DNA from: a bacterium
GTDB lineage: Bacteria > Blakebacterota > Blakebacteria > Blakebacterales > Blakebacteraceae
DNA: 26,437 nt
Direction of reading: 5' to 3'
Assembly (NCBI GenBank): GCA_025774615.1
Contig: JALGVQ010000044.1
Span: 1 to 26,437, forward strand
This document shows, in pieces, positions 9,573 through 24,967 of the stretch. Position numbers and translations under genes: made by a program. The notes below the pieces were generated by a model. The model saw only the letters and a program-made list of their open reading frames with translations, ran no database searches and was not told the DNA's origin. Positions within the stretch are counted from its first letter, which is position 1; each line of letters opens with the position of its first letter.

Positions 9573-11178
9573 TTACCCTTTGGGAAAGTCCCGCGAATCC
9601 TCCGGTCCCGTTATGTAGAGCATCGGTTCACTCTTCAGATCGATTGTGCGACCCTGTTCCAGCGCGGAACCATCTGCAGTGTAAAGGACCTGGGTAACGG
9701 GGCGCAGAGGGTAGCCCTTATTGATAGTGACAACACTGCAGATCTCACCTGAATTCAGCTTCACGAATGAACCTGCGGGAAAAATGCTGATCTCATCGAT
9801 AAAGGCCTTCACAACATCTTTGTCGAACAACTGTCCACCCAGCCGGATGAGCTGCTGGAGAACATTGAAGGGGATCATGTGGTCACGGAAGGGTCTCACA
9901 TGGGATATCCCGACCCATCGAGACGTTCGTGTTCCTGGTACGCAATAGTCTCCAAAAAGGGATAGGCGCCAGTATAACTGGTAAGCAGCTGCTTTCCATA
10001 TGCCGGATGCTGTTTGATCTGGGCATATCCTGACTGATCGAGCTTACCCTGTCTTGTTATCAGGCCCTCAGGCAGCTGTGTCATGCCGATATCGTGGACC
10101 ATTGCTCCCAGCGTCAGCTCGTACAGTTTGTCGCCTGGCATCTTCATCCCCATCCCTGCCCGCATCGTCAGGAGGGCAACATTCACCTGATGACAAGCCA
10201 GGTAATGATCAGAGTCATCGAATTCCGCCGTATGCTGAATGGCCTTGAGGCAGAGATCGCCGGAGCTGGTTACACTCTCGATGATCTGTTCGACGATCTG
10301 TGCGATCCCGGAGATAGGCGGTTCAGATCTGCCGCGATGTCCTCGCAGGAACTGCAATGTGATCGCTACAGCGTCCTCATACAGGGTGATGATATCCGAG
10401 CATGCTTTTCCATCAACAGCGATCGTTGCAGGTTCTGGTGGGAGTGCTGCCTTAGATTTGGGAATGACAGGCTTAACAACACCCGCAGGAATGGTTGGCT
10501 GTGACGAAACCATATCGGCCATTCGTGGAGGCCCATCGGATGGGCTCACATTGATGCGCCCGGTAACCGGTTCGTTGATTTCGGGTTCAGCGACAGGAGG
10601 ATCGACAGATTCCGGTACCTGATCGGCTGATTCAGAAATATCTGCAGTGGGTGCAGCAGGTATTGGATCAGGAATCGTTTCAGGTTCAACGGTCCCGGTG
10701 AGCAACGGGAAGAGAAGAGATTCGATTTATCGGTTCCCGGCCGGGTAACCGGGGCGGTGGAGAGTTCTTCGATGGTATCAATCAGATCTTCAGCTGATAT
10801 CGGTAACGAGTGCAATCTCAGGTTGGGGACTCCGTCGAACAGCCCCTTTTGTTCTGCATCGGGCAGTATGACGATCCGGTCAGGGTAGTCAGATGTTGCG
10901 ATATCCCGAAGAAAGGATCCGGCTTCCTCAATCCGGCCATCAACCATGATCACAACGCGTCCCGCCACCTTCAGTCGAACCTGCAACTCGGCTGGAGTCG
11001 GAAAGTAACGGATGCGATACCCGCGATCCTCGATTGCGCTCCGGATGAGATCGACCATCACCGTATCGTCAGAAAGGATGAGGATCTCGGGAAGTGACAC
11101 ACTCGGAGGTGGTTCCTCTTTCCGGGTAGGTCTCGTTGTCTCCGGACCTGATGGAAATGCATCACTCAGACGAACCAT
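9573..11178 (-). pseudogene. Broken receiver-like + HD-GYP c-di-GMP phosphodiesterase gene
   Basis: Three consecutive frames together make one response-regulator/HD-GYP protein. Frame one (from ATG 11178, RBS GAGAGG) encodes a CheY-like domain (ILILSDD, VVIMVDGR) and leaves register near 10703-10729. Frame two (from about 10726 to 9896) encodes a Pro/Ser-rich linker and most of the HD domain: CHQVNVALL, MVHDIGM, IKQHP and EHERLDGSGYP. It then stops right after GYPM. Frame three (9904-9573) resumes with HVRPFRD and the C-terminal part (LFDKDVVKAF, PAGSFVKLNSGE). Between GYP and RPFR about 30 residues normal for the family are absent, so the second lesion is a deletion as well as a frame change. 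The intact protein would degrade cyclic di-GMP. The start overlaps the end of the preceding transferase gene by 17 bp, so it was the last gene of the polysaccharide operon. Confidence 0.8.
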
Positions 11179-12325
11179 CGGAATCCTCTCGCGCGGCTTC
11201 TGATCTGTTATCCATAAATAACATGAATCGTCCGATGACAGTAAGGATAATCACTCCCTGAACGAGAGCCAGACCGGCATACAGTCCACTGGTGGTGCTC
11301 AGAATAATGGCACTGAGTGACAGGATAAGTGAAATAACACAGATGAACATCACCACGTCAAACCGGTTCAGGCCGATATTGAGCAGACGATGGTGGATAT
11401 GATCCCTGCCGGCGTATTCCAGCCATCCCCGGAAGGTGCGGATCCTCCCGTCTGCGAACCGGGTGATGGTAATGAACGTGGTATCGAAGATCGGTACGCC
11501 GAGGATCAGCAGGGGAACCACGACATTGATCGCAGATGAACCTGCACCTCCCCAGTCACCCACCAGGGCGATTGATGCCAGTGAAAAGCCCAACAGGGTC
11601 GCGCCTGAATCACCCAGATAGACCGAGGCCGGTCTGCGGCGAAAATTATGGGGAAGGAATCCGACGCAGGCACCACATAACGCGGCGCAGAGGAGGAGGA
11701 AGAACGACTGACCGCTGGCGACTGCAACCAGTCCCAATGATCCGGCAGCTACCACGGTCAAGGAGGCAGCCAGCCCGTCGATCCCATCAAGGAAGTTGAT
11801 GGCATTGGTGAGGCCGATGAGCCATATCGCGGTCAGCGCGATCTCTGCCACATCGCCCCATAGTGCTTCAGGTAAAAAGGTGATTCGAACACCCGCCGAG
11901 ATAACAATGGCCGCTGCGCCAAGCTGAACAAACAGTTTCAGGGTTGCGGGTAGTTCCCAGAGATCATCCAGGACTCCGATCAGCAAGAGGGGCCCAAGAG
12001 CTATCATCAGGGCCCTGATCCCATCATCCTGAAGGTGATACCCGTAGTGGAAGTTCACTGCCAGGAAGCCGGCATAAATAGCAATACCGCCTACCAGAGG
12101 TATCGCCCCCTCGTGGATCTTGCGCTCATTCGGCCTGTCGACAAGCCCCATCTTTGTTGCAAGCAGTGACAGGGGCTGCACGAGGGTGAATGAGACTGCC
12201 GCCGCCAGGGAAAAAGGACCAAGCCATTCCAGCCATCGGGGCAGGTTGATCATTGAGTTAAAAACGAAAAAGAGGATTACTCCCAATAGGGCGATGACAG
12301 TGGTTACTACTTGTCTCAGGTTCAC
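11162..12325 (-). CDS. Undecaprenyl-phosphate sugar-1-phosphate transferase (WecA/TagO type)
   Basis: Polytopic inner-membrane enzyme of the MraY/WecA family that moves a sugar-1-phosphate (commonly GlcNAc-1-P) from UDP-sugar to undecaprenyl phosphate, the first step of lipid-linked glycan assembly. It has about ten to eleven membrane helices. Family motifs: VDRPNERKIHEG at 62-73, GGIAIYAG 79-86, the catalytic aspartates in GVLDD at 117-121, NAINFLDGIDGLA 174-186, VYLGDSGA 235-242 and HIHHRL 309-314, which marks the WecA/TagO branch rather than MraY. The GTG start at 12325 overlaps the stop of the upstream aminotransferase (GTGA). The C-terminal tail is hydrophilic. It is the only initiating transferase visible in the locus, so it probably primes the exopolysaccharide. 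The exact sugar is not readable. Confidence 0.93.
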   Translation of the reverse strand: MNLRQVVTTVIALLGVILFFVFNSMINLPRWLEWLGPFSLAAAVSFTLVQPLSLLATKMGLVDRPNERKIHEGAIPLVGGIAIYAGFLAVNFHYGYHLQDDGIRALMIALGPLLLIGVLDDLWELPATLKLFVQLGAAAIVISAGVRITFLPEALWGDVAEIALTAIWLIGLTNAINFLDGIDGLAASLTVVAAGSLGLVAVASGQSFFLLLCAALCGACVGFLPHNFRRRPASVYLGDSGATLLGFSLASIALVGDWGGAGSSAINVVVPLLILGVPIFDTTFITITRFADGRIRTFRGWLEYAGRDHIHHRLLNIGLNRFDVVMFICVISLILSLSAIILSTTSGLYAGLALVQGVIILTVIGRFMLFMDNRSEAAREDSDGSSE

Positions 12326-16262: not shown

Positions 16263-17069
16263 CTAATACTCACCCTCCAGGGTGCGGGAGACATCGTAGA
16301 TGACCATCTCATCAATTTCATCCAGTTGCCGGGACGCGCCGAGGAGGAGCGCCAGATTACAGATATTGTTGATCCGGCGCGGGATGCCCCCACTCAGATC
16401 ATGGGCAAGTTCGTATGCTTTCTGTGTGAAGAGATCCCTCTTGGCACCGGCGGTCGTGAGTCGATGCCTGATATAGTCGGCTGTGTTCTCTTCGGTGAAC
16501 GGTGCCAGATGCGCTCGCATAGCCAATCGCTGGGAGAGCGGCTTGTTGAGGTCCACCTTCAGTCCCAGTTCCGGTTGACCGACCAGGAAGAGACTCAACA
16601 GCGTCTTTCCCTCATACTGGTAGTTCAGGAGGAGGCGGATCTCTTCGAAGGTCTCCTTCTGCTCGATGATATGCGCTTCATCGATGATGAGAATGGTCTC
16701 CCGACCATCACGATAGTTATTGATCAGCGCTTCCTCCAGCAGCTGGATAACGTCGGCTTTGTTCTCCGGGACAGATGTGAGACCCATCTTGATGAGGATC
16801 ATACGGAGTAGCTCGAGATCGTTGAGCTGGGGATTTGAAACCACGATGAACCGGTAGTTCGACTTGTCCAGACGTGACTTGAGGAGGTGGATGGCCAGCG
16901 TTTTTCCACAGCCGAATACCCCGGTAAGGAGAGCCGCACCCATGTCATTCTGTACGCAGAAGAGCATACGACTCAGAGTCTCTTCATGCTGTGGTGAGTG
17001 GTAATAGAAGTCAGGATCCGGAGTGTTCTTGAAGGGCATCCGGTCCAGACCCCAGTTTTCCAGGTACAT
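16263..17069 (-). CDS. ExeA/GspA-like AAA+ ATPase of a polysaccharide locus
   Basis: The 268-residue AAA_22-type ATPase has Walker A GVFGCGKT at 50-57, Walker B ILIIDEAH at 126-133, the sensor-like LVGQPELG at 162-169, SQRLAMRA at 179-186 with a likely arginine finger, and GGIPRRIN at 227-234. The N-terminal WGLDRMPFKNTPDPDF is the ExeA-family entry motif. Members of this group are often found in exopolysaccharide loci, including those with exosortase (XrtA), where they carry the name XrtA-associated ATPase. No exosortase or PEP-CTERM protein is seen in this window. ATG 17069 has AGGGA about 9 bp upstream. Its stop lies only 31 bp before the start of the PHP-like protein, so the two are cotranscribed. 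The partner it remodels is unknown. Confidence 0.9.
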   Translation of the reverse strand: MYLENWGLDRMPFKNTPDPDFYYHSPQHEETLSRMLFCVQNDMGAALLTGVFGCGKTLAIHLLKSRLDKSNYRFIVVSNPQLNDLELLRMILIKMGLTSVPENKADVIQLLEEALINNYRDGRETILIIDEAHIIEQKETFEEIRLLLNYQYEGKTLLSLFLVGQPELGLKVDLNKPLSQRLAMRAHLAPFTEENTADYIRHRLTTAGAKRDLFTQKAYELAHDLSGGIPRRINNICNLALLLGASRQLDEIDEMVIYDVSRTLEGEY

Positions 17070-17231: not shown

Positions 17232-18389
17232 TCATGAAGAAAGCAGTGATTCGTAAAGCGTGATATGCTGATGTGTCGTCACCTCTGAAGTATAAACGGT
17301 ACACACCCTCTCATAGGCAGCTTCCGCCAGCATGTCCCGCTCTTCCGACGACGCGATGAGAGAGAGGATCTCCTTCGCGAGTACTTCGGGATCTGAAGCG
17401 GGAACGAGTCGACCGGCATTCCCGGCGTCAAGCACGCTCGGTACCCCTCCCACAGAAGTGGCTATGATCGCCAGCTTGGCCGACATGGCCTCCAGAAGCA
17501 CACGACCGAATCCCTCGTTCAAGGAGGATAACACGAACAGATCCGCCAGTCCGAGAAGATCGGCCATATCCTCCCTGAAGCCCCACAGACGGATCCGCTC
17601 ACCGCAGTCCGATTCCCTGATCATGCCGCGGAGTCGCGCCTCCTCGGGGCCGGCACCGAATATCCAGCACTTCCAGTTATCCGCTCCGATGCCGATCTGT
17701 GCGAGTGCGCTTATCAGGGTGCCCTGGTCCTTGACCGGTACCAGTCTCCCGGAAGTAACGATAAGGACTTCGTCATCCTCGATACCATGATCCCGGCGAA
17801 GAGCGGTCCTGGATTCAGTGGCAGGCGGAGCGTAGAGGGTATGGTCGATACCGATCGGTATCTGGATGTGCTGCTCCGGTCTGCCGATCCCGGTCTCGAT
17901 GTAACTCTGCGACTCTTCTTCCGTCAGTCCGATGATGACACTGGTCCACCGTGAGGCAAACCGGTCGAGAACAGAAAAGAACCGCTGTTTCCAGCCGGTG
18001 AAGTAACCTTCGAGGATCGTTCCCCTTGGTGAATAGACTATGAGAGACACCCCTGCCAGACGCGCTGCGAACCTGCCGATAAAGCCCGCTTTGCTGGTAT
18101 GGGCGTGCACGATTACCGGTTTTATCCGACGGATCAGTCGCCACAGACTTATAAGAGCTGCCAAATCATGCCAGAGATGGGGATCGCGTCTCAGTGAAGG
18201 GATCGTATGAATGGGGATCCCGAGCGCTTCAGCCTCGGGGAGCATGTCCTCCAATGGAGACGGCGTGAGTCCGGTGGCAAGCTCGACAGGGACACCTGCT
18301 TCAGAAAGACCTTTAAGCAGGAGCAGAAGGCTCGTTGGCGCCCCACCGGCTTCCAGCCGTGTGATGATATGCAGAATGGGTCCGCTCAA
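17232..18389 (-). CDS. GT4-family glycosyltransferase
   Basis: GT-B fold retaining glycosyltransferase, predicted to add a sugar to the growing lipid-linked glycan on the cytoplasmic side of the membrane. Visible: the N-terminal glycine loop HIITRLEAGGAP at 7-18, HAHTSKAG near 95-102 and PIGID near 178. The donor-binding site has SGRLVPVKD, and SSLNEGFGRVLLEAM carries the ExxxxxxxE signature. The length of 385 is normal. The TTG start at 18389 overlaps the stop of the upstream GT9 gene (TTGA) and has AGGGAAAG ahead of it. A 162-bp gap follows it. Donor and acceptor sugars cannot be told from sequence. Confidence 0.92.
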   Translation of the reverse strand: MSGPILHIITRLEAGGAPTSLLLLLKGLSEAGVPVELATGLTPSPLEDMLPEAEALGIPIHTIPSLRRDPHLWHDLAALISLWRLIRRIKPVIVHAHTSKAGFIGRFAARLAGVSLIVYSPRGTILEGYFTGWKQRFFSVLDRFASRWTSVIIGLTEEESQSYIETGIGRPEQHIQIPIGIDHTLYAPPATESRTALRRDHGIEDDEVLIVTSGRLVPVKDQGTLISALAQIGIGADNWKCWIFGAGPEEARLRGMIRESDCGERIRLWGFREDMADLLGLADLFVLSSLNEGFGRVLLEAMSAKLAIIATSVGGVPSVLDAGNAGRLVPASDPEVLAKEILSLIASSEERDMLAEAAYERVCTVYTSEVTTHQHITLYESLLSS

Positions 18390-19465
18390 AATGTCTTTCC
18401 CTGTTCAGATTTGAGTTCCTGAACAGCGGATAGTACGCGCGCAGTGCTGATAGATCGAAGAGAGAGGGGAAGTAGAATGTTGCGAAGGACTGCATTAGGG
18501 ACCTTCAAGGAACCCGAGAGGACACGATACCTAGTTTCGGGGAGCCATGGATGTAACGTTCTAACCGGTAGATTCCCGAAGAGAGCAATCGTTGGCACAC
18601 CCGCTGCGGCAGCAATATGCATAGGTCCAGAGTTGTTGGTGATCAGCATCTCAGCCCCCGAGATAATTTTTACAAGACCCGGCAAATCAAGCTCTCCTGC
18701 GAGAGAAAACGCTCTTGGGCCGATAATCTCAGCTATCTTTCTACTAGTGGCTACTTCAGAGGCCGAACCCAGTATAACAATGCCGAGCTTCTGGTCCAGG
18801 AGGGCTCTGCCCACATCAGCGAATCGTGAGGCGGGCCATCGTTTCCATGAGGTATAACCGCCGGGGTTGATGCAGAGATATGGTTGTGGCAGGATAACCG
18901 GACCCTCAGGCGTACTCTTAAAAACAAATTCTGGAGCAGGTGCTTTAAGGGGAGGGACGCCCATGACAGTCGCTGTCCTGCAATAGCGGATCACGTTATG
19001 ATTGCCTGCCATCGACTGCTCCGGCATTCCCCGGGTATATGGCAGAATAGTGTTCCGGTATCCACGTCCGACTGAGTTGCCAACTCTGAGATTTCGCAGG
19101 AGGAACCATACACTGAGCAGGCCCCGTAATGAACCGATTTCATGCAGATTGACCACGATATCGGGTGAATAAGTCGCAACATCACGCTCGAATGTTGAAA
19201 TGATCATTCTGGAAGCACGAGAGAATAATGACCGAGGCCATCGAACTCGATTCAGATCCAGAGTAATGACCTGCGATCTGATTCCGAGGAGTGGGACGAT
19301 CGGCAAAGCGCGAGGTACTACCGCAAGCAGCGTATTCCCGACACCAAAGTGTTGCTCGATCGATTTTACTGCAGGGGATGCGAGTACGAGATCACCGATT
19401 CCCGCAAGCATCAGGATCAGAATCCGTTCACTCGGGCGTGAATTCTCAACAAGCATATTGATCAT
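18386..19465 (-). CDS. GT9-family glycosyltransferase (heptosyltransferase-like)
   Basis: Member of the ADP-heptose:LPS heptosyltransferase family (GT9, GT-B fold). It has the N-terminal GIGDLVLASPAVKSI near 22-36, CINPGGYTSWKRWP near the middle (phosphate loop plus catalytic region) and the C-terminal TNNSGPMHIAAAAG with GVPTIALFG, the strongest family marker. The length (359) is typical. ATG 19465 overlaps the stop of the upstream polymerase gene (ATGA), and its own stop overlaps the GT4 gene. Its place inside an exopolysaccharide operon suggests it adds a sugar to this polymer rather than to LPS core, but that is inference. The DNA here reads somewhat more AT-rich than the housekeeping part. 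Confidence 0.9.
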   Translation of the reverse strand: MINMLVENSRPSERILILMLAGIGDLVLASPAVKSIEQHFGVGNTLLAVVPRALPIVPLLGIRSQVITLDLNRVRWPRSLFSRASRMIISTFERDVATYSPDIVVNLHEIGSLRGLLSVWFLLRNLRVGNSVGRGYRNTILPYTRGMPEQSMAGNHNVIRYCRTATVMGVPPLKAPAPEFVFKSTPEGPVILPQPYLCINPGGYTSWKRWPASRFADVGRALLDQKLGIVILGSASEVATSRKIAEIIGPRAFSLAGELDLPGLVKIISGAEMLITNNSGPMHIAAAAGVPTIALFGNLPVRTLHPWLPETRYRVLSGSLKVPNAVLRNILLPLSLRSISTARVLSAVQELKSEQGKTF

Positions 19466-20907
19466 CGAGGCGTGGATGAAATGAGACCGTGAGATACTTG
19501 AGGGGTAAGCGATTCCGACTTCTCATCCACTTTTGTATCGGGATTATTGAAGATATGGAGAAAAGTCACAATTCCGGCCAGAAGCCAGAATGGCTCCATG
19601 ATACGCACAATGATGAAGGTGTTTGATCCCAACGCGTGAAATGCCAATCCGGCGAGTCCGGCAAGGAATCCGATGCAAATACCCTGCTCCCATTTATCAG
19701 CCGCCGACTTGAGCGCGGACCATCCCTGAATGAATAGGGAATAGATGAGCCAGAGAAACGTTGCCAGACCGAGCAGTCCCGTCTCGATCAGCACCCGGGG
19801 GTACTGGCCATCGATAAATCCATAGCCTGTAACACCATATCCTATCAAAGGATGCTTCGGAAAATCGGAGAGAATATCCTCATACGACTTGAGCCGGGCA
19901 GAGGTAGATGTATCGAGTCGTATATTACCGAGTTCAACCTGGCCCGTAGATATCCGTTGCCCACCGAATGTATATTCAATCCGCTCAGTAACCGATGATG
20001 GTGCGAGGAGAATGAGTGCAAGAACGAATGTGACGGCTGAGAAACCAGCGATGATTTTCTGGCGACTGAGCATCACAATGACAATAGCAACTGCGAATAT
20101 CCCGAGATACGAGGCTCTCGACAGTGTAAATAGGAAAGGGATACCAAGAATGGTGATGCCGACAGCATAGCGGATTCCCTTCCTGAGGCTATCCGAAGAA
20201 ACCAATAACCCAGCATACAGTGCTATTAACAGTACCAGGTAGCCGCCAAGGGTATTCGGCTCTCCTGATTCCCCTTCGAATGGAGCTGTGACCCTCACAC
20301 CGAGAGGTATCTGGATGCCTGCATATATTGCAACAAGTATTCCTGTGATAAAGAGAACCCGAATCAATCTTCGGGCTTGGGCTTTGTCATGGATGAAGTT
20401 AACCACCGCAAAATAAACGAAAACATACTCAACATACTTTAACACATAAAAAAATCCCGTGATCGGACTCACTCGGTCGAAAAGCATTCCGATGGTAGTA
20501 CTCACTATGGCGATCAGAATATACGCCATGATAGGTCTATTGAGGGGAGTGCTGAGGAAGAGGCCAAGTTCCTGATACACTGCTCCCCTGGCAAACCACG
20601 CGAAGGCAATAATCAGAAGAAGAAAATCATCCAGGCGCAGAGTGACTCCACGCTCGGTTGTTGCGCCACCGCCAGTAAGGTTGCTCGCGATAATCTCGGG
20701 GCCGAGCAGCATTGAGAAGATAAGGATGTAAATCCCCACCTCGGGCCAAAGAAAGCAGATGAGCAGGATCAGCAAACCAAGGGTTATAGCAAGACCAGTT
20801 ATATTTCCGGTATTGGCTATTGCCTGAGCGGATACAATACAGAGGATACCTACGAACAGTGCCAGACCGACACCGACTACGCGATCGGACGAGGAAAGCG
20901 TTGGCAT
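19462..20907 (-). CDS. O-antigen ligase/polymerase-like membrane protein (Wzy_C family)
   Basis: The 481-residue inner-membrane protein has about ten to twelve hydrophobic helices. It has a periplasmic loop between about residues 310 and 380, and within it the family stretch LSDFPKHPLIGYGVTGYG, then IETGLLGLATFLWL. This pattern fits the O-antigen ligase/polymerase superfamily (Wzy, WaaL). In a wza-wzc operon it is most likely the polymerase that joins repeat units in the periplasm. Ligase function cannot be excluded. ATG 20907 starts 7 bp behind the kinase gene stop, with only a weak AAAG ribosome site, so coupling to the upstream gene is likely. The C-terminal tail is hydrophilic. Confidence 0.88.
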   Translation of the reverse strand: MPTLSSSDRVVGVGLALFVGILCIVSAQAIANTGNITGLAITLGLLILLICFLWPEVGIYILIFSMLLGPEIIASNLTGGGATTERGVTLRLDDFLLLIIAFAWFARGAVYQELGLFLSTPLNRPIMAYILIAIVSTTIGMLFDRVSPITGFFYVLKYVEYVFVYFAVVNFIHDKAQARRLIRVLFITGILVAIYAGIQIPLGVRVTAPFEGESGEPNTLGGYLVLLIALYAGLLVSSDSLRKGIRYAVGITILGIPFLFTLSRASYLGIFAVAIVIVMLSRQKIIAGFSAVTFVLALILLAPSSVTERIEYTFGGQRISTGQVELGNIRLDTSTSARLKSYEDILSDFPKHPLIGYGVTGYGFIDGQYPRVLIETGLLGLATFLWLIYSLFIQGWSALKSAADKWEQGICIGFLAGLAGLAFHALGSNTFIIVRIMEPFWLLAGIVTFLHIFNNPDTKVDEKSESLTPQVSHGLISSTPR

Positions 20908-20914
20908 ATCTGCT

Positions 20915-23773
20915 TTAAGGGGTGGGAGGGATCACATGGCGCACACGCGCCATGAAAACCTGCCCTGTTTCGCGTATAATCTTCGCGTCTCGCTCACATG
21001 CCTCTTTATCTTTATGCAGGCCGACAAAGACACGGTACCAATCACCCAATCCCGGTACTTCTTCGGTACGCAGCCAGATTTGTTCAGTTTCGGTAATGTG
21101 CAGTTGTGTCAGCGCGGCCCTGAGCGATTCGGCATCTTCGAGGTTCCTGAAAGAGCCGACGTGCACGCTCCAGGTTGGTTTCTCCATGACTGCTGGTTCG
21201 AAGGTTGATGGTTCACTGATAGGCAGAGATGTGGACGGTGCCATCGGAATTGAGGTGGGTACATCTTCGATTGCCTGTACCGTTGATTCGGAACAAGACC
21301 CAAGAAGCATGGATACAACAAGAAATATTACTGCAGCAGCAAGAGCTATCCAGGCCCATAGTGGAATCTTTCTGAACCAGGATTCCTCCCCATCTTCCTC
21401 GCTTACCTCGATTTCCGGCTTATCAGAACTAATATCTCTGATCACGTCTCCCGAGTGTTCTTCCCCCTCTTTGGACGTTTCATTATCATTCTTGTCAAAA
21501 TAATCAATTTTAACCCAAGACGTTTCATCTTTCGTTCCGCTGATTCTGTACGACTCCGACCTGTCACGTTCCCGTTTTTCTACGTAGTCCTGCTCTTCCT
21601 TTTTGAAGAGACTCTTCACCATGCCGAGAAGCGTCTTCTTCTCTTTCGTTTCCTCACCGTAGTACTTGGTCATGTACTGGCTGTAAGGAGAATAGCCGCC
21701 GATCTCTGCCTTCACGTCGTTCATCGCCAGACCGAGTACATGAGCACCAACGTTTGAGAGATGGAATTTTGCTCGACGCAGGGCGTTTCGGGGAACTTTT
21801 CCGACCTGATAAATCAGAACTGCCCAATCGACCTGGCGACCAACGATCGCCGCGTCGGTGACCGGCAGGATCGGTGGACAGTCAACCAGGACCATGTCGT
21901 ATTCTTCACTCGCCTCCTCGATCATCTGGGCGAAACGGGGCGAGCTCAGGAGCTCTGATGGGTTAGGGGGGATACCACCGGCCGTGACGATGCTCAGATT
22001 ATCCAGTCCGGGCATCTGCATGATGTTCTGCAGGCTGAGCGGTCCCACCATCATGTCGGTGATTCCCTTGACACAGTCGCGCCACTCCTTCTGACCGGTC
22101 AGAATGTCGGTCATACCGCTCTCAAGAGAGAGACCGAATGACTTGTAAACAGTGGGGCGGCGCATGTTGCATCCCATGAGAAGAACACGATTACCGGCCT
22201 GGGCGACTGTGATGGCCAGGTTCGCCATCGTAGTAGACTTGCCCTCCTGCAGACTCGATGAAGTAATTACAAAGGTATTTTTGGTTTCGATCGATTCTCC
22301 GGTGCCGCCAATTGCAAATTGAAGGTTTGTCCGGAGGGTTCTGTAGGCCTCAGCGGCAGGTGACTTGGGATCGTACTGAGTAATGAGTCGCGCAAACATC
22401 GTGAGGTGGGGATGACCTTCAAGCTCAGGGTTCTGCTCCACGAGCTGCTCGCTCATCCTCTCGACCGGAAGATGAGGAATCACCGCAAGGACCGGTACTT
22501 CAATGTATTCCTCCACATCTTCGATGGTGCCGATAGAGGTGTCCATCGTCTCGATGACGAAGGCGATGACAATACCGAGCATGAATCCCAGCAACAGACC
22601 GATAACGGTCTTCAGACCTTGTCCACCGCCCAGATCCGATGCAGCCGTAGTGGGGTAACCTACAATGGAGACCTCATCGACAGTGCCTGCGGTTCTGATC
22701 TGAACTTCCTGCAGACTCGTTTCCAGCTGTGTGACTAACTGGGTATTCAGGTCCACCTTTCTCTGAAGGGTAGCCAGCTCTACTTCTTCGCCAGGAAACT
22801 CAAGTAATCGGGTGTTGTATTCCTCAAGCCTGATTTCTATCTGGGTGATATCCTGCTCGACCGACTCGAGGAGTTCTCCGCGTACGATATCGATCCTCTC
22901 ATCAAGGATGCGAATCGGCTCAGCGTCCTTGGTGTAGGTGAGCAGGAGCCGGTTTCGATCGGACAGCAGGGAAGAGAGTTGGGAGTCATTCTCGATGTAC
23001 TGGGAGAGGAATGTTGGATCGGTTGAGATCCCGGCAGATGTGAATCCCTCATTACCCTCCATCAAGCTGAGTTTCATTATGTTGAGAGTAGCGAGCCGGT
23101 CGGAAAGGATAGTCCTGCGTTCAATGAGGGGGAGGAGAGCGGCAGCATCAGAGAGGGAGTAAGGTAGATTGCTCTGTCGGAATTCCTTGAGTTGTGTCTG
23201 AAGAGAATCGAGGTTGCCGTTGATTTGTCCCAGGGATCTTAAAATTTCTGATTCAGCGCGATCATTCTGCTCGGTTGCTTTGGTTCTGCTGTAGTTCTTG
23301 AACCCCCTGGCTGCAAAGGTAGCCAGTTGCATAGCTTCCTCTTTTGTTGCCCCTCTCGCCGTGATATCAATAAGGCCGGAATATCCTACCTGCTCCGCAC
23401 TGATACGATTTTCCAGGTTGGTGATAGCGCCCCACCAGATCGAATCATTATGGGCGTTCTCGAATACCAGATCTTCCGGAATGGTATCATCCATCAGCTT
23501 GGCCGTCTCAAGAAGCACCGGCTGGCTGGAGATGAGCATGGTCTGGGTTGCGATATTATCTTCGGAACTCCAGGAGAATGTCTCCAGCATTAATCCGGTG
23601 AGATCGCTGGCCTCAGTAATCCTGACCGTTGCGGTGGCCTCCCAGGTAGCATCCGTATCCATCGACATCACAAATGAGAGGCCGCCCAGTCCGATTGAGA
23701 TCGCTACGATCACAATGACGTGGCGGCGGAGGATGCGGAAATAATCGCGCAGGTTCAGTTCGTAGCGAGCCAT
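20915..23773 (-). CDS. Wzc-type tyrosine autokinase with extra C-terminal TM and SPOR domain
   Basis: Co-polymerase and tyrosine kinase that controls chain length and export with the Wza partner. Order (952 residues): Wzz domain with TM1 near 17-36, a periplasmic coiled-coil stretch (about 170-360), TM2 near 389-408, and a BY-kinase domain. The kinase has Walker A SSSLQEGKST (505-514, Lys512) and Walker B MVLVDCPP (627-634). The Tyr cluster (Tyr694, 697, 700, 704, 705) follows the kinase. The Walker A' segment reads LLMGCNMRR (531-539), with Gly and Asn where family members have two Asp. Unlike normal Wzc, which ends at the Tyr cluster, a charged acidic linker (710-800), TM3 (804-825) and a periplasmic SPOR domain follow (about 867-947: WSVHVGSFRN, DWYRVFVG). 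The start lies 3 bp behind the wza stop. Confidence 0.93.
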   Translation of the reverse strand: MARYELNLRDYFRILRRHVIVIVAISIGLGGLSFVMSMDTDATWEATATVRITEASDLTGLMLETFSWSSEDNIATQTMLISSQPVLLETAKLMDDTIPEDLVFENAHNDSIWWGAITNLENRISAEQVGYSGLIDITARGATKEEAMQLATFAARGFKNYSRTKATEQNDRAESEILRSLGQINGNLDSLQTQLKEFRQSNLPYSLSDAAALLPLIERRTILSDRLATLNIMKLSLMEGNEGFTSAGISTDPTFLSQYIENDSQLSSLLSDRNRLLLTYTKDAEPIRILDERIDIVRGELLESVEQDITQIEIRLEEYNTRLLEFPGEEVELATLQRKVDLNTQLVTQLETSLQEVQIRTAGTVDEVSIVGYPTTAASDLGGGQGLKTVIGLLLGFMLGIVIAFVIETMDTSIGTIEDVEEYIEVPVLAVIPHLPVERMSEQLVEQNPELEGHPHLTMFARLITQYDPKSPAAEAYRTLRTNLQFAIGGTGESIETKNTFVITSSSLQEGKSTTMANLAITVAQAGNRVLLMGCNMRRPTVYKSFGLSLESGMTDILTGQKEWRDCVKGITDMMVGPLSLQNIMQMPGLDNLSIVTAGGIPPNPSELLSSPRFAQMIEEASEEYDMVLVDCPPILPVTDAAIVGRQVDWAVLIYQVGKVPRNALRRAKFHLSNVGAHVLGLAMNDVKAEIGGYSPYSQYMTKYYGEETKEKKTLLGMVKSLFKKEEQDYVEKRERDRSESYRISGTKDETSWVKIDYFDKNDNETSKEGEEHSGDVIRDISSDKPEIEVSEEDGEESWFRKIPLWAWIALAAAVIFLVVSMLLGSCSESTVQAIEDVPTSIPMAPSTSLPISEPSTFEPAVMEKPTWSVHVGSFRNLEDAESLRAALTQLHITETEQIWLRTEEVPGLGDWYRVFVGLHKDKEACERDAKIIRETGQVFMARVRHVIPPTP

Positions 23774-23776
23774 GGA

Positions 23777-24868
23777 TTATTTCTTGACCGAATCGATGAG
23801 AATGGTGGCAATGACAGCCGTCTGCAGGATCGACCACGTATCCCTGAAGAACGAGATCGTCGAGTCGTAGGCGCTCCGTCCGACATGAAGGATATCGCCC
23901 GGTTCGAGTCGCATATTGGCAAGCATATCTCCCTTTTTCAGGATATCACGATAGGGGACCTTGTAGAGGACCGCGTCCATCCCCCGCCCGCGTACGAGGG
24001 TGACCCATCTCGTCTGCGCCCTCGCCGTCGGCCCTCCGGCCTCGGAGATGGCGTCCAGCACCGTCATACCGGGTCGTGGCTGGAGCATACTCTGCTGAGT
24101 GACTTCGCCCAGGACGAAGATCCTGTGTTGGGTGACCGTAGTCGAGGGCACGAGAACGACATCTCCACGATCAAGGACGGGATTCTGACTCTCATCAGCG
24201 TTATAGATCGTTGCAGTAAGGTCGAACATACCCGACCTGCCAGAGATGTCAGTGATCATGATGGCGGATCGATCAGCGTTCTCGCCGAACGCCGCATTGG
24301 TCAGGATGAAGTCGAGCAGAGTAGTGCGACGTTCGAGCGCATAGCGCCCTTCGCCTGAACTGCCGCCGCCCCCCCCCCGCGATGCAACCTCTCCCATGAG
24401 GGTGATATGCGCTCCCCGATAGGTAAGGATCCTTAAAGTGGGCTGTGGACGTCTGAGAGTGGATGAGAGGATGTCTGCCAGATGCTCTTCTGCTTCAGGA
24501 ACGGTCAGACCGCCGATCATGATCGGAGCGCTGGAGATGTGGGTTGGGAGTCGTACTTCGCCACCCGATCCGACGCGGACCGGATAGGTTATTGGACCAT
24601 TCTCGAGGGAGAGAGTCAGTTCGATATCATCATCAGGATTGAGGCGGTAGTAAAACGCACCCTCGACGGTACGGAAAACCGCGTTGCTCTCAGGATGCGG
24701 GGCTCTCTGCCATGTTTGCCCGGCCTCAAGATCAGATGGAAGTATGATCGCCGATTCCGATCCCTGATCGGAAGGGAGGTAGGTCGTCAGATCCGATCCA
24801 CCCGCACAGGCGGATAGAACGACGCCCAGGATCAGCGCAACTGTACAGACTGGAAGCGATCGCCTCAT
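23777..24868 (-). CDS. Wza-type polysaccharide export outer-membrane lipoprotein
   Basis: Poly_export/SLBB protein that forms the outer-membrane export channel. The 363-residue product starts with a lipoprotein signal (MRRSLPVCTVALILGVVLSA, lipobox LSAC, Cys21). The Poly_export domain shows FYYRLNPDDDIEL near 72-84, then an SLBB-like unit from about 153 (HITLMGEVASRG) and a second from about 248 (HRIFVLGEVTQQS, TVLDAISEAGG). It ends with a helix rich in aliphatic residues (WSILQTAVIATILIDSV), as in Wza. ATG 24868 is chosen because the lipobox then fits a normal signal peptide; the open frame continues upstream to 24967 without one. GGAG is about 11 bp ahead. First gene of the minus-strand operon. 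A ten-G run codes for five glycines at 165-169. Confidence 0.93.
   Translation of the reverse strand: MRRSLPVCTVALILGVVLSACAGGSDLTTYLPSDQGSESAIILPSDLEAGQTWQRAPHPESNAVFRTVEGAFYYRLNPDDDIELTLSLENGPITYPVRVGSGGEVRLPTHISSAPIMIGGLTVPEAEEHLADILSSTLRRPQPTLRILTYRGAHITLMGEVASRGGGGGSSGEGRYALERRTTLLDFILTNAAFGENADRSAIMITDISGRSGMFDLTATIYNADESQNPVLDRGDVVLVPSTTVTQHRIFVLGEVTQQSMLQPRPGMTVLDAISEAGGPTARAQTRWVTLVRGRGMDAVLYKVPYRDILKKGDMLANMRLEPGDILHVGRSAYDSTISFFRDTWSILQTAVIATILIDSVKK
24369..24378 (-). repeat. Run of ten G inside the wza-type gene
   Basis: The coding strand carries an uninterrupted G10 (C10 on the + strand), followed by GGC codons; it encodes the Gly-rich turn of the first SLBB unit. Slippage by one base would truncate the export protein. 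The run is long for a coding region of this GC content. Confidence 0.9.
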
Positions 24869-24938
24869 GATGCAGGTTCTCCGGAGCACTCGAATGCTCA
24901 TCCGCCGAAGTCGATGAATCCTCAGAGGATGATACCCA

Positions 24939-24967
24939 TTAATACTGACATGATAATGGCATGACAA
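24939..24967 (-). promoter_or_regulatory. Likely promoter of the polysaccharide operon
   Basis: On the minus strand TTGTCA (24962-24967, five of six bases of the sigma-70 -35 box) is followed by a 17-bp spacer and TATTAA (24939-24944, four of six of the -10 box). The transcript would have a leader of about 65 bases before the wza ATG. This is the best promoter match in the 199-bp divergent gap between wza and the GT4 gene. Confidence 0.5.

Follow-up and report, generated by a model that had tools for sequence, protein, structure and literature searches.

A Wzc-type gene with a C-terminal extension in a polysaccharide cluster

The window, which is the whole 26,437-nucleotide stretch of DNA from an uncultured bacterium analysed here, carries on its minus strand a polysaccharide cluster with a PCP-2a/BY-kinase-like gene between an OPX export gene and a Wzy-type gene. 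The product of the kinase-like gene is expected to govern both the chain length of the polysaccharide and its export. The features are listed below, with residue numbers of the 952-aa protein in brackets; the congener is the corresponding protein from an independent genome of the same genus.

23777..24967, minus: OPX outer-membrane export protein (Poly_export, SLBB_2), upstream partner; Pfam and synteny
20915..23773, minus: PCP-2a/BY-kinase-like protein, 952 aa, with a third membrane helix (TM3) and a SPOR domain; ORF, Pfam, NCBIfam and AlphaFold2
23492..23761, minus: Wzz domain (5-94), enclosing the first membrane helix (19-38); Pfam PF02706, 26.9 bits, cut-off 25.5, and model
22556..22771, minus: GNVR domain (335-406), running into the second membrane helix (about 385-411); Pfam PF13807, 32.7 bits, cut-off 27.7, and model
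21659..22363, minus: BY-kinase domain (about 471-705), EX2RX2R at E475/R478/R481; Pfam, NCBIfam, PDB sequence and fold matches
22232..22261, minus: Walker A, SSSLQEGKST (505-514), K512 kept
22154..22183, minus: degenerate Walker A', LLMGCNMRRP (531-540), G534 and N536 in place of both Asp; alignment to PDB Wzc and clade counts
21872..21895, minus: Walker B, MVLVDCPP region (627-634), D631 kept
21659..21694, minus: Tyr cluster, Y694, Y697, Y700, Y704 and Y705
21365..21658, minus: charged cytoplasmic linker (706-803), predicted disordered; pLDDT mostly below 50, 55% identity to the congener
21299..21364, minus: TM3 (804-825); modelled helix 805-824, 82% identical in the congener, K/R pattern
21185..21298, minus: periplasmic Pro/Ser/Thr-rich linker (826-863); pLDDT below 50, 24% identity to the congener
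20933..21178, minus: SPOR domain (866-947); Pfam, FtsN sequence match, model and PDB fold matches
19462..20907, minus: Wzy-type polymerase/ligase (PF04932), downstream partner; Pfam and synteny
18386..19465, minus: GT9 glycosyltransferase; Pfam
17232..18389, minus: GT4-type glycosyltransferase; Pfam
16263..17069, minus: XrtA-associated-type AAA ATPase, TIGR03015-like, below the cut-off; Pfam and NCBIfam
11162..12325, minus: Glycos_transf_4 (WecA/MraY-type) lipid-linked sugar transferase of the same cluster

The 952-aa ORF has no internal stop. The PCP-2a periplasmic part is present, with Wzz and GNVR above their cut-offs and two membrane helices, and the kinase part was matched by Pfam AAA_31 (residues 511-638, 33.1 bits, cut-off 27) and by the NCBIfam tyrosine autokinase model TIGR01007 (168.5 bits, cut-off 108). 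Among solved chains, Wzc was matched over approximately residues 313-713 and the kinase domains of Etk, CapB, BceF and VpsO over the kinase part, and Foldseek with the whole-protein model also gave a Wzc match. The five Tyr at 694-705 are internal, and the chain ends much further on, after a Pfam SPOR match (PF05036) at residues 866-934 with 34.6 bits (cut-off 21, E 2.4e-8).

A sequence-only reading of this DNA had proposed that a Wzc-type kinase continues in frame past a Tyr cluster at 694-705 into a third membrane helix and a periplasmic SPOR domain, and the analysis bore this out. The interval that it marked, 20918-21658, is exactly residues 706-952 of the ORF; the profile searches that it proposed placed Wzz, GNVR, AAA_31 and SPOR all above the Pfam cut-offs; and AlphaFold2 modelled the third helix at 805-824. 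K/R residues lie on the kinase side of TM3 and none follow it, in both the window protein and the congener, so the C-terminus is expected in the periplasm.

The cluster extends to genes for WbqC, PIG-L, a DegT aminotransferase and the WecA-type transferase, and an HD_5-domain protein lies close to its end (9896-10705). The OPX-PCP-Wzy order was kept in most relatives with long enough flanks. There was no wall or division gene in the window operon; the source genome has genes for an Amidase_3 amidase and for FtsZ, four SPOR matches in all, and two LMW-PTP genes outside the window. The suggested tie to division fared less well, as it derives from the behaviour of SPOR domains elsewhere, and its sole genomic hint, an ftsZ gene close to that of the kinase, was present in only 2 of 16 genomes; division-gene neighbourhood was therefore dropped as general evidence. 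Both cases are from Fidelibacterota: in L120 (14665-19238) murC-ftsQ-ftsA-ftsZ precedes the kinase-SPOR operon, and in L068 (5-1689) ftsA-ftsZ lies upstream at the same place.

Some other features of the neighbourhoods were also seen. Desulfobacterota, Planctomycetota and Fidelibacterota have a gene for a small, basic membrane protein with one pass (about 70-200 aa) between those of the co-polymerase and Wzy; it directly follows the kinase ORF in L043, L044 and L048 and is also present in L045 (+126), L046 (+205) and L120 (6001-6309). In five Fidelibacterota loci (L068, L070, L074, L081 and L111) a fixed block of CRP-like regulator, radical SAM protein and response regulator precedes OPX. Stand-alone TM-SPOR genes beside tail-less kinases were not seen in the loci inspected.

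Conservation and recurrence of the layout

The congener has the same layout from end to end (959 aa, 65% identity, and 92% in the kinase domain), and the isolate Meg22_46_Bin_213 (L035) has a protein of the congener's length and identity. The congener's SPOR score was 19.7 bits, slightly below the Pfam cut-off of 21. Mismatches at codon positions 1/2/3 between the window gene and L035 were 9/9/82% in TM3, 31/27/63% in SPOR and 58/42/66% in the linker between them, a pattern which shows purifying selection on TM3 and SPOR in this genus, with the linker hardly constrained. The source genome is a fragmented metagenome bin of 324 contigs, and a fusion of two genes by misassembly or frameshift was therefore considered; but the frame and layout are repeated in the independent genome and in other phyla, so such an artefact has next to no probability and was ruled out.

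A profile of five relatives was searched against about 85,000 species genomes, which gave 80 loci, and a FastTree tree was built on the Wzz-kinase part of the Wzc-like proteins. All proteins bearing TM3 or SPOR, except for one unrelated case with RodZ_C, fell into one clade of 42 (support 100). TM3 was present in 29 of the 42, of which 15 were labelled as SPOR proteins (certain or degenerate) and 14 had no SPOR; the other 13 had neither, two of them being cut by a contig end. SPOR tails were carried by Nitrospirota, Desulfobacterota, Rokubacteria, Fidelibacterota and the window genus, mostly in OPX-PCP-Wzy operons. Scores exceeded the Pfam cut-off in the window protein, in L009, L041, L042, L043, L051 (71.6 bits, two matched stretches), L069 and L078, and also in L122 and L124 from a domain-wide sample. 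L081 scored 18.5, L055 and L074 were weak at 14.4 and 14.9, and L068, in which a Pfam SPOR match was absent, was counted by the likeness of its tail to those of sister proteins. Close relatives (E up to 1e-72) turned up in 28 of the 336 genomes of a spread sample; judged by their tails, 6 have TM3 with a SPOR-type tail and 5 have TM3 alone.

Thus, the search for the same domain order that had been suggested overturned the idea that the layout is unique to this genome, as it recurs in several phyla. The sequence-only reading knew of no standard Wzc with this layout; the layout is widespread and not a one-off, but no prior description of it was found in the open-access papers searched.

Several Fidelibacterota tails consist of degenerate, sub-threshold SPOR units, and the Planctomycetota (Brocadiales) proteins keep TM3 and end 5-14 residues later without SPOR, as do others that end soon after TM3. 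Given these degenerate tails and SPOR-less proteins, SPOR is dispensable within the clade. In an IQ-TREE tree, parsimony required 8 SPOR changes, at least 4 of them forced by well-supported branches, and each of these may be a gain or a loss. Two proteins close to the SPOR-bearing L043 (7001-10186), namely L044 (7001-9247) and L048 (7001-9244), end soon after the Tyr cluster, which suggests a recent loss or gain of TM3 and SPOR together. Outside the clade, the distant BY-kinase L027 (949-3624, minus strand) has TM3 and RodZ_C (49.4 bits) at the same place after the kinase; therefore, BY-kinases probably gained a C-terminal periplasmic domain related to the wall or cell shape on at least two occasions.

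This distribution allows for another explanation, that TM3 is the functional part, which anchors the Tyr tail and alters oligomer packing, while whatever follows in the periplasm (SPOR, RodZ_C or nothing) is secondary and exchangeable. The 14 clade members with TM3 and no SPOR fit it, notably those of Planctomycetota, as do the conservation of TM3, the highest of any segment of the extension (82%), and the RodZ_C protein. However, purifying selection acts on SPOR too in the window genus, and the domain is found in many lineages, in some cases as two copies; we consider this explanation rather unlikely.

SPOR fold and kinase motifs

AlphaFold2 on the full protein gave a beta-alpha-beta-beta-alpha-beta domain at 867-947 (pLDDT mostly 74-95), and the domain modelled by itself reached pLDDT 90. 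The fold prediction proposed earlier thus returned a SPOR fold, for which the best PDB matches included the SPOR domain of RlpA (Z 11.6, rmsd 1.7 over 76 residues), CwlC (10.0), DedD (7.9) and DamX (6.0). The RlpA domain has been solved with denuded glycan (PMC6895207). The sole sequence match among solved structures was the FtsN SPOR domain, and the match was weak (E 0.016); in that weak alignment W912 and R914 occupy the positions of FtsN W283/R285, which are among the residues needed for septal targeting (PMC6895207). The conserved strand-1 Gln, by contrast (the Q251/Q270 equivalent), is His871 in the window protein and other residues in several relatives.

The change at this key position, together with the strong divergence of SPOR units among relatives, would fit a domain that binds another partner, such as OPX, the secreted polysaccharide or Wzy, instead of peptidoglycan. 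The Trp and Arg of the glycan face are nevertheless as in FtsN, and the closest fold is that of a glycan-binding SPOR, which makes another partner improbable.

The kinase domain passed the Walker A, Walker B and EX2RX2R criteria of PCP-2a BY-kinases and failed DxDxR (GCNMR), which is the Walker A' motif by definition (PMC8517177) and is thought to aid Tyr recognition and the start of phosphorylation (PMC12004946). The alignment of LLMGCNMRRP to LLIDCDMRK of Wzc gives a change from DxD to GxN. In the clade of 42, the first position was D in 21, E in 13, N in 4, G in 3 and T in 1, and the second was D in 39 and N in 3; GxN occurred only in the window protein, the congener and Tariuqbacter (3 of 42) and, in a wider sample, in L122, L132 and L139. 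An active kinase had been assumed from the start, but with both aspartates replaced (G534, N536) phosphorylation may be weak or absent in the window species, and by the motif definition kinase activity is doubtful.

In the extreme case the protein would be a pseudokinase scaffold, in which degeneration of Walker A' would put an end to Tyr phosphorylation, and binding to the wall would serve as the assembly switch instead. GxN is shared with the congener and is rare elsewhere, and there is a precedent in EcpK, as BY pseudokinases serve as PCP scaffolds (PMC12004946). Lys512, Asp631, EX2RX2R and the five Tyr are intact, however, the kinase domain is 92% identical in the congener, and most SPOR-bearing relatives keep DxD or ExD, so a complete loss of activity has a low probability in our view. 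Like the window protein, EcpK and HfsB have a BY-kinase fold with lost catalytic motifs that serves a PCP (PMC12004946), but they are stand-alone proteins without a Tyr tail, whereas the window protein is fused and has the Tyr cluster. EcpK has none of the three Walker motifs, whereas degradation here is confined to Walker A'; identity as an EcpK-type pseudokinase was ruled out by the presence of Walker A, Walker B and the Tyr cluster.

Proposed role and known relatives

The reading we favour, with a probability of roughly 0.55, is a three-pass Wzc-type co-polymerase that uses its SPOR domain to dock the Wzc/OPX exporter on glycan stripped by amidases, at sites of division or remodelling. The N-terminal part would form a Wzc-like inner-membrane oligomer that controls Wzy and docks to the OPX exporter, and past the Tyr cluster the chain would cross the membrane a third time and hold SPOR in the periplasm on a flexible linker. 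SPOR most likely binds glycan strands without stem peptides, and once bound it would position or keep the exporter at places in the wall opened by amidases, at the septum or in remodelling zones. The Tyr tail would be anchored on either side, and binding to the wall could thereby also alter its packing and hence the assembly state. The analysis established the domain order, the third helix, the SPOR fold, the operon, and the conservation and recurrence of the layout; from these we infer glycan binding, septal targeting and this coupling of wall state to assembly.

Docking is favoured by the domain matches, the layout of the congener, selection on TM3 and SPOR and the recurrence of both across phyla, and likewise by the RlpA-like fold, the retained W912/R914, the OPX-PCP-Wzy order and the presence of Amidase_3 and FtsZ in the genome. 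A precedent is the BY-kinase CpsD, which directs capsule synthesis to the division site in Streptococcus pneumoniae (PMC4574921). Docking is weakened by His871 at the Gln position most conserved for glycan binding, by the dispensability of SPOR in the clade, and by the gene content of the window operon and the rarity of ftsZ adjacency. A broader version, which we regard as speculative and unlikely, would make these proteins a distinct and widespread class of co-polymerases with three membrane passes. Their Tyr tail would end in a periplasmic wall reader (SPOR, or RodZ_C in another case) that gates phosphorylation or takes its place, so that capsule would be polymerised and exported only at sites where peptidoglycan is being split.

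With such a co-polymerase, the export of capsule may be coupled to division or to remodelling of the cell wall. The protein bears on how the Wzc/OPX exporter passes peptidoglycan and on how surface polysaccharide is kept in step with growth and division in Gram-negatives, and a co-polymerase with its own predicted reader of denuded glycan, kept in several phyla, offers a testable physical link. The natural variants of the clade (TM3 with or without SPOR, DxD and GxN kinases, and the independent RodZ_C fusion) could serve to tell apart what the anchor, wall binding and phosphorylation each contribute.

No description of SPOR paired with a BY-kinase or Wzc was found in the open-access literature searched, and NCBIfam has no model specific to the kinase-TM3-SPOR layout; provisionally, this PCP-2a/BY-kinase variant with TM3 and SPOR is apparently undescribed. 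Its nearest known relatives are the PCP-2a BY-kinases Wzc and Etk, which share Wzz, GNVR, the kinase with its Tyr cluster and the gene position between OPX and Wzy, and among solved structures Wzc gave the best matches in both sequence and fold. In Wzc the chain stops at the Tyr cluster, however, whereas the window protein has 247 further residues with TM3 and SPOR and has lost the Walker A' aspartates. CpsC/CpsD of S. pneumoniae (PCP-2b) is likewise a BY-kinase complex and sets capsule synthesis at the division site, but it is split and Gram-positive and is localised via the C-terminal end of CpsC, with no SPOR domain mentioned (PMC4574921). The SPOR fold is common to FtsN, DamX, DedD, RlpA and the window protein, and the C-terminal extension repeats the FtsN-type arrangement of single-pass anchor, linker and SPOR; none of these four proteins is fused to a polysaccharide co-polymerase or kinase, and the window protein is.
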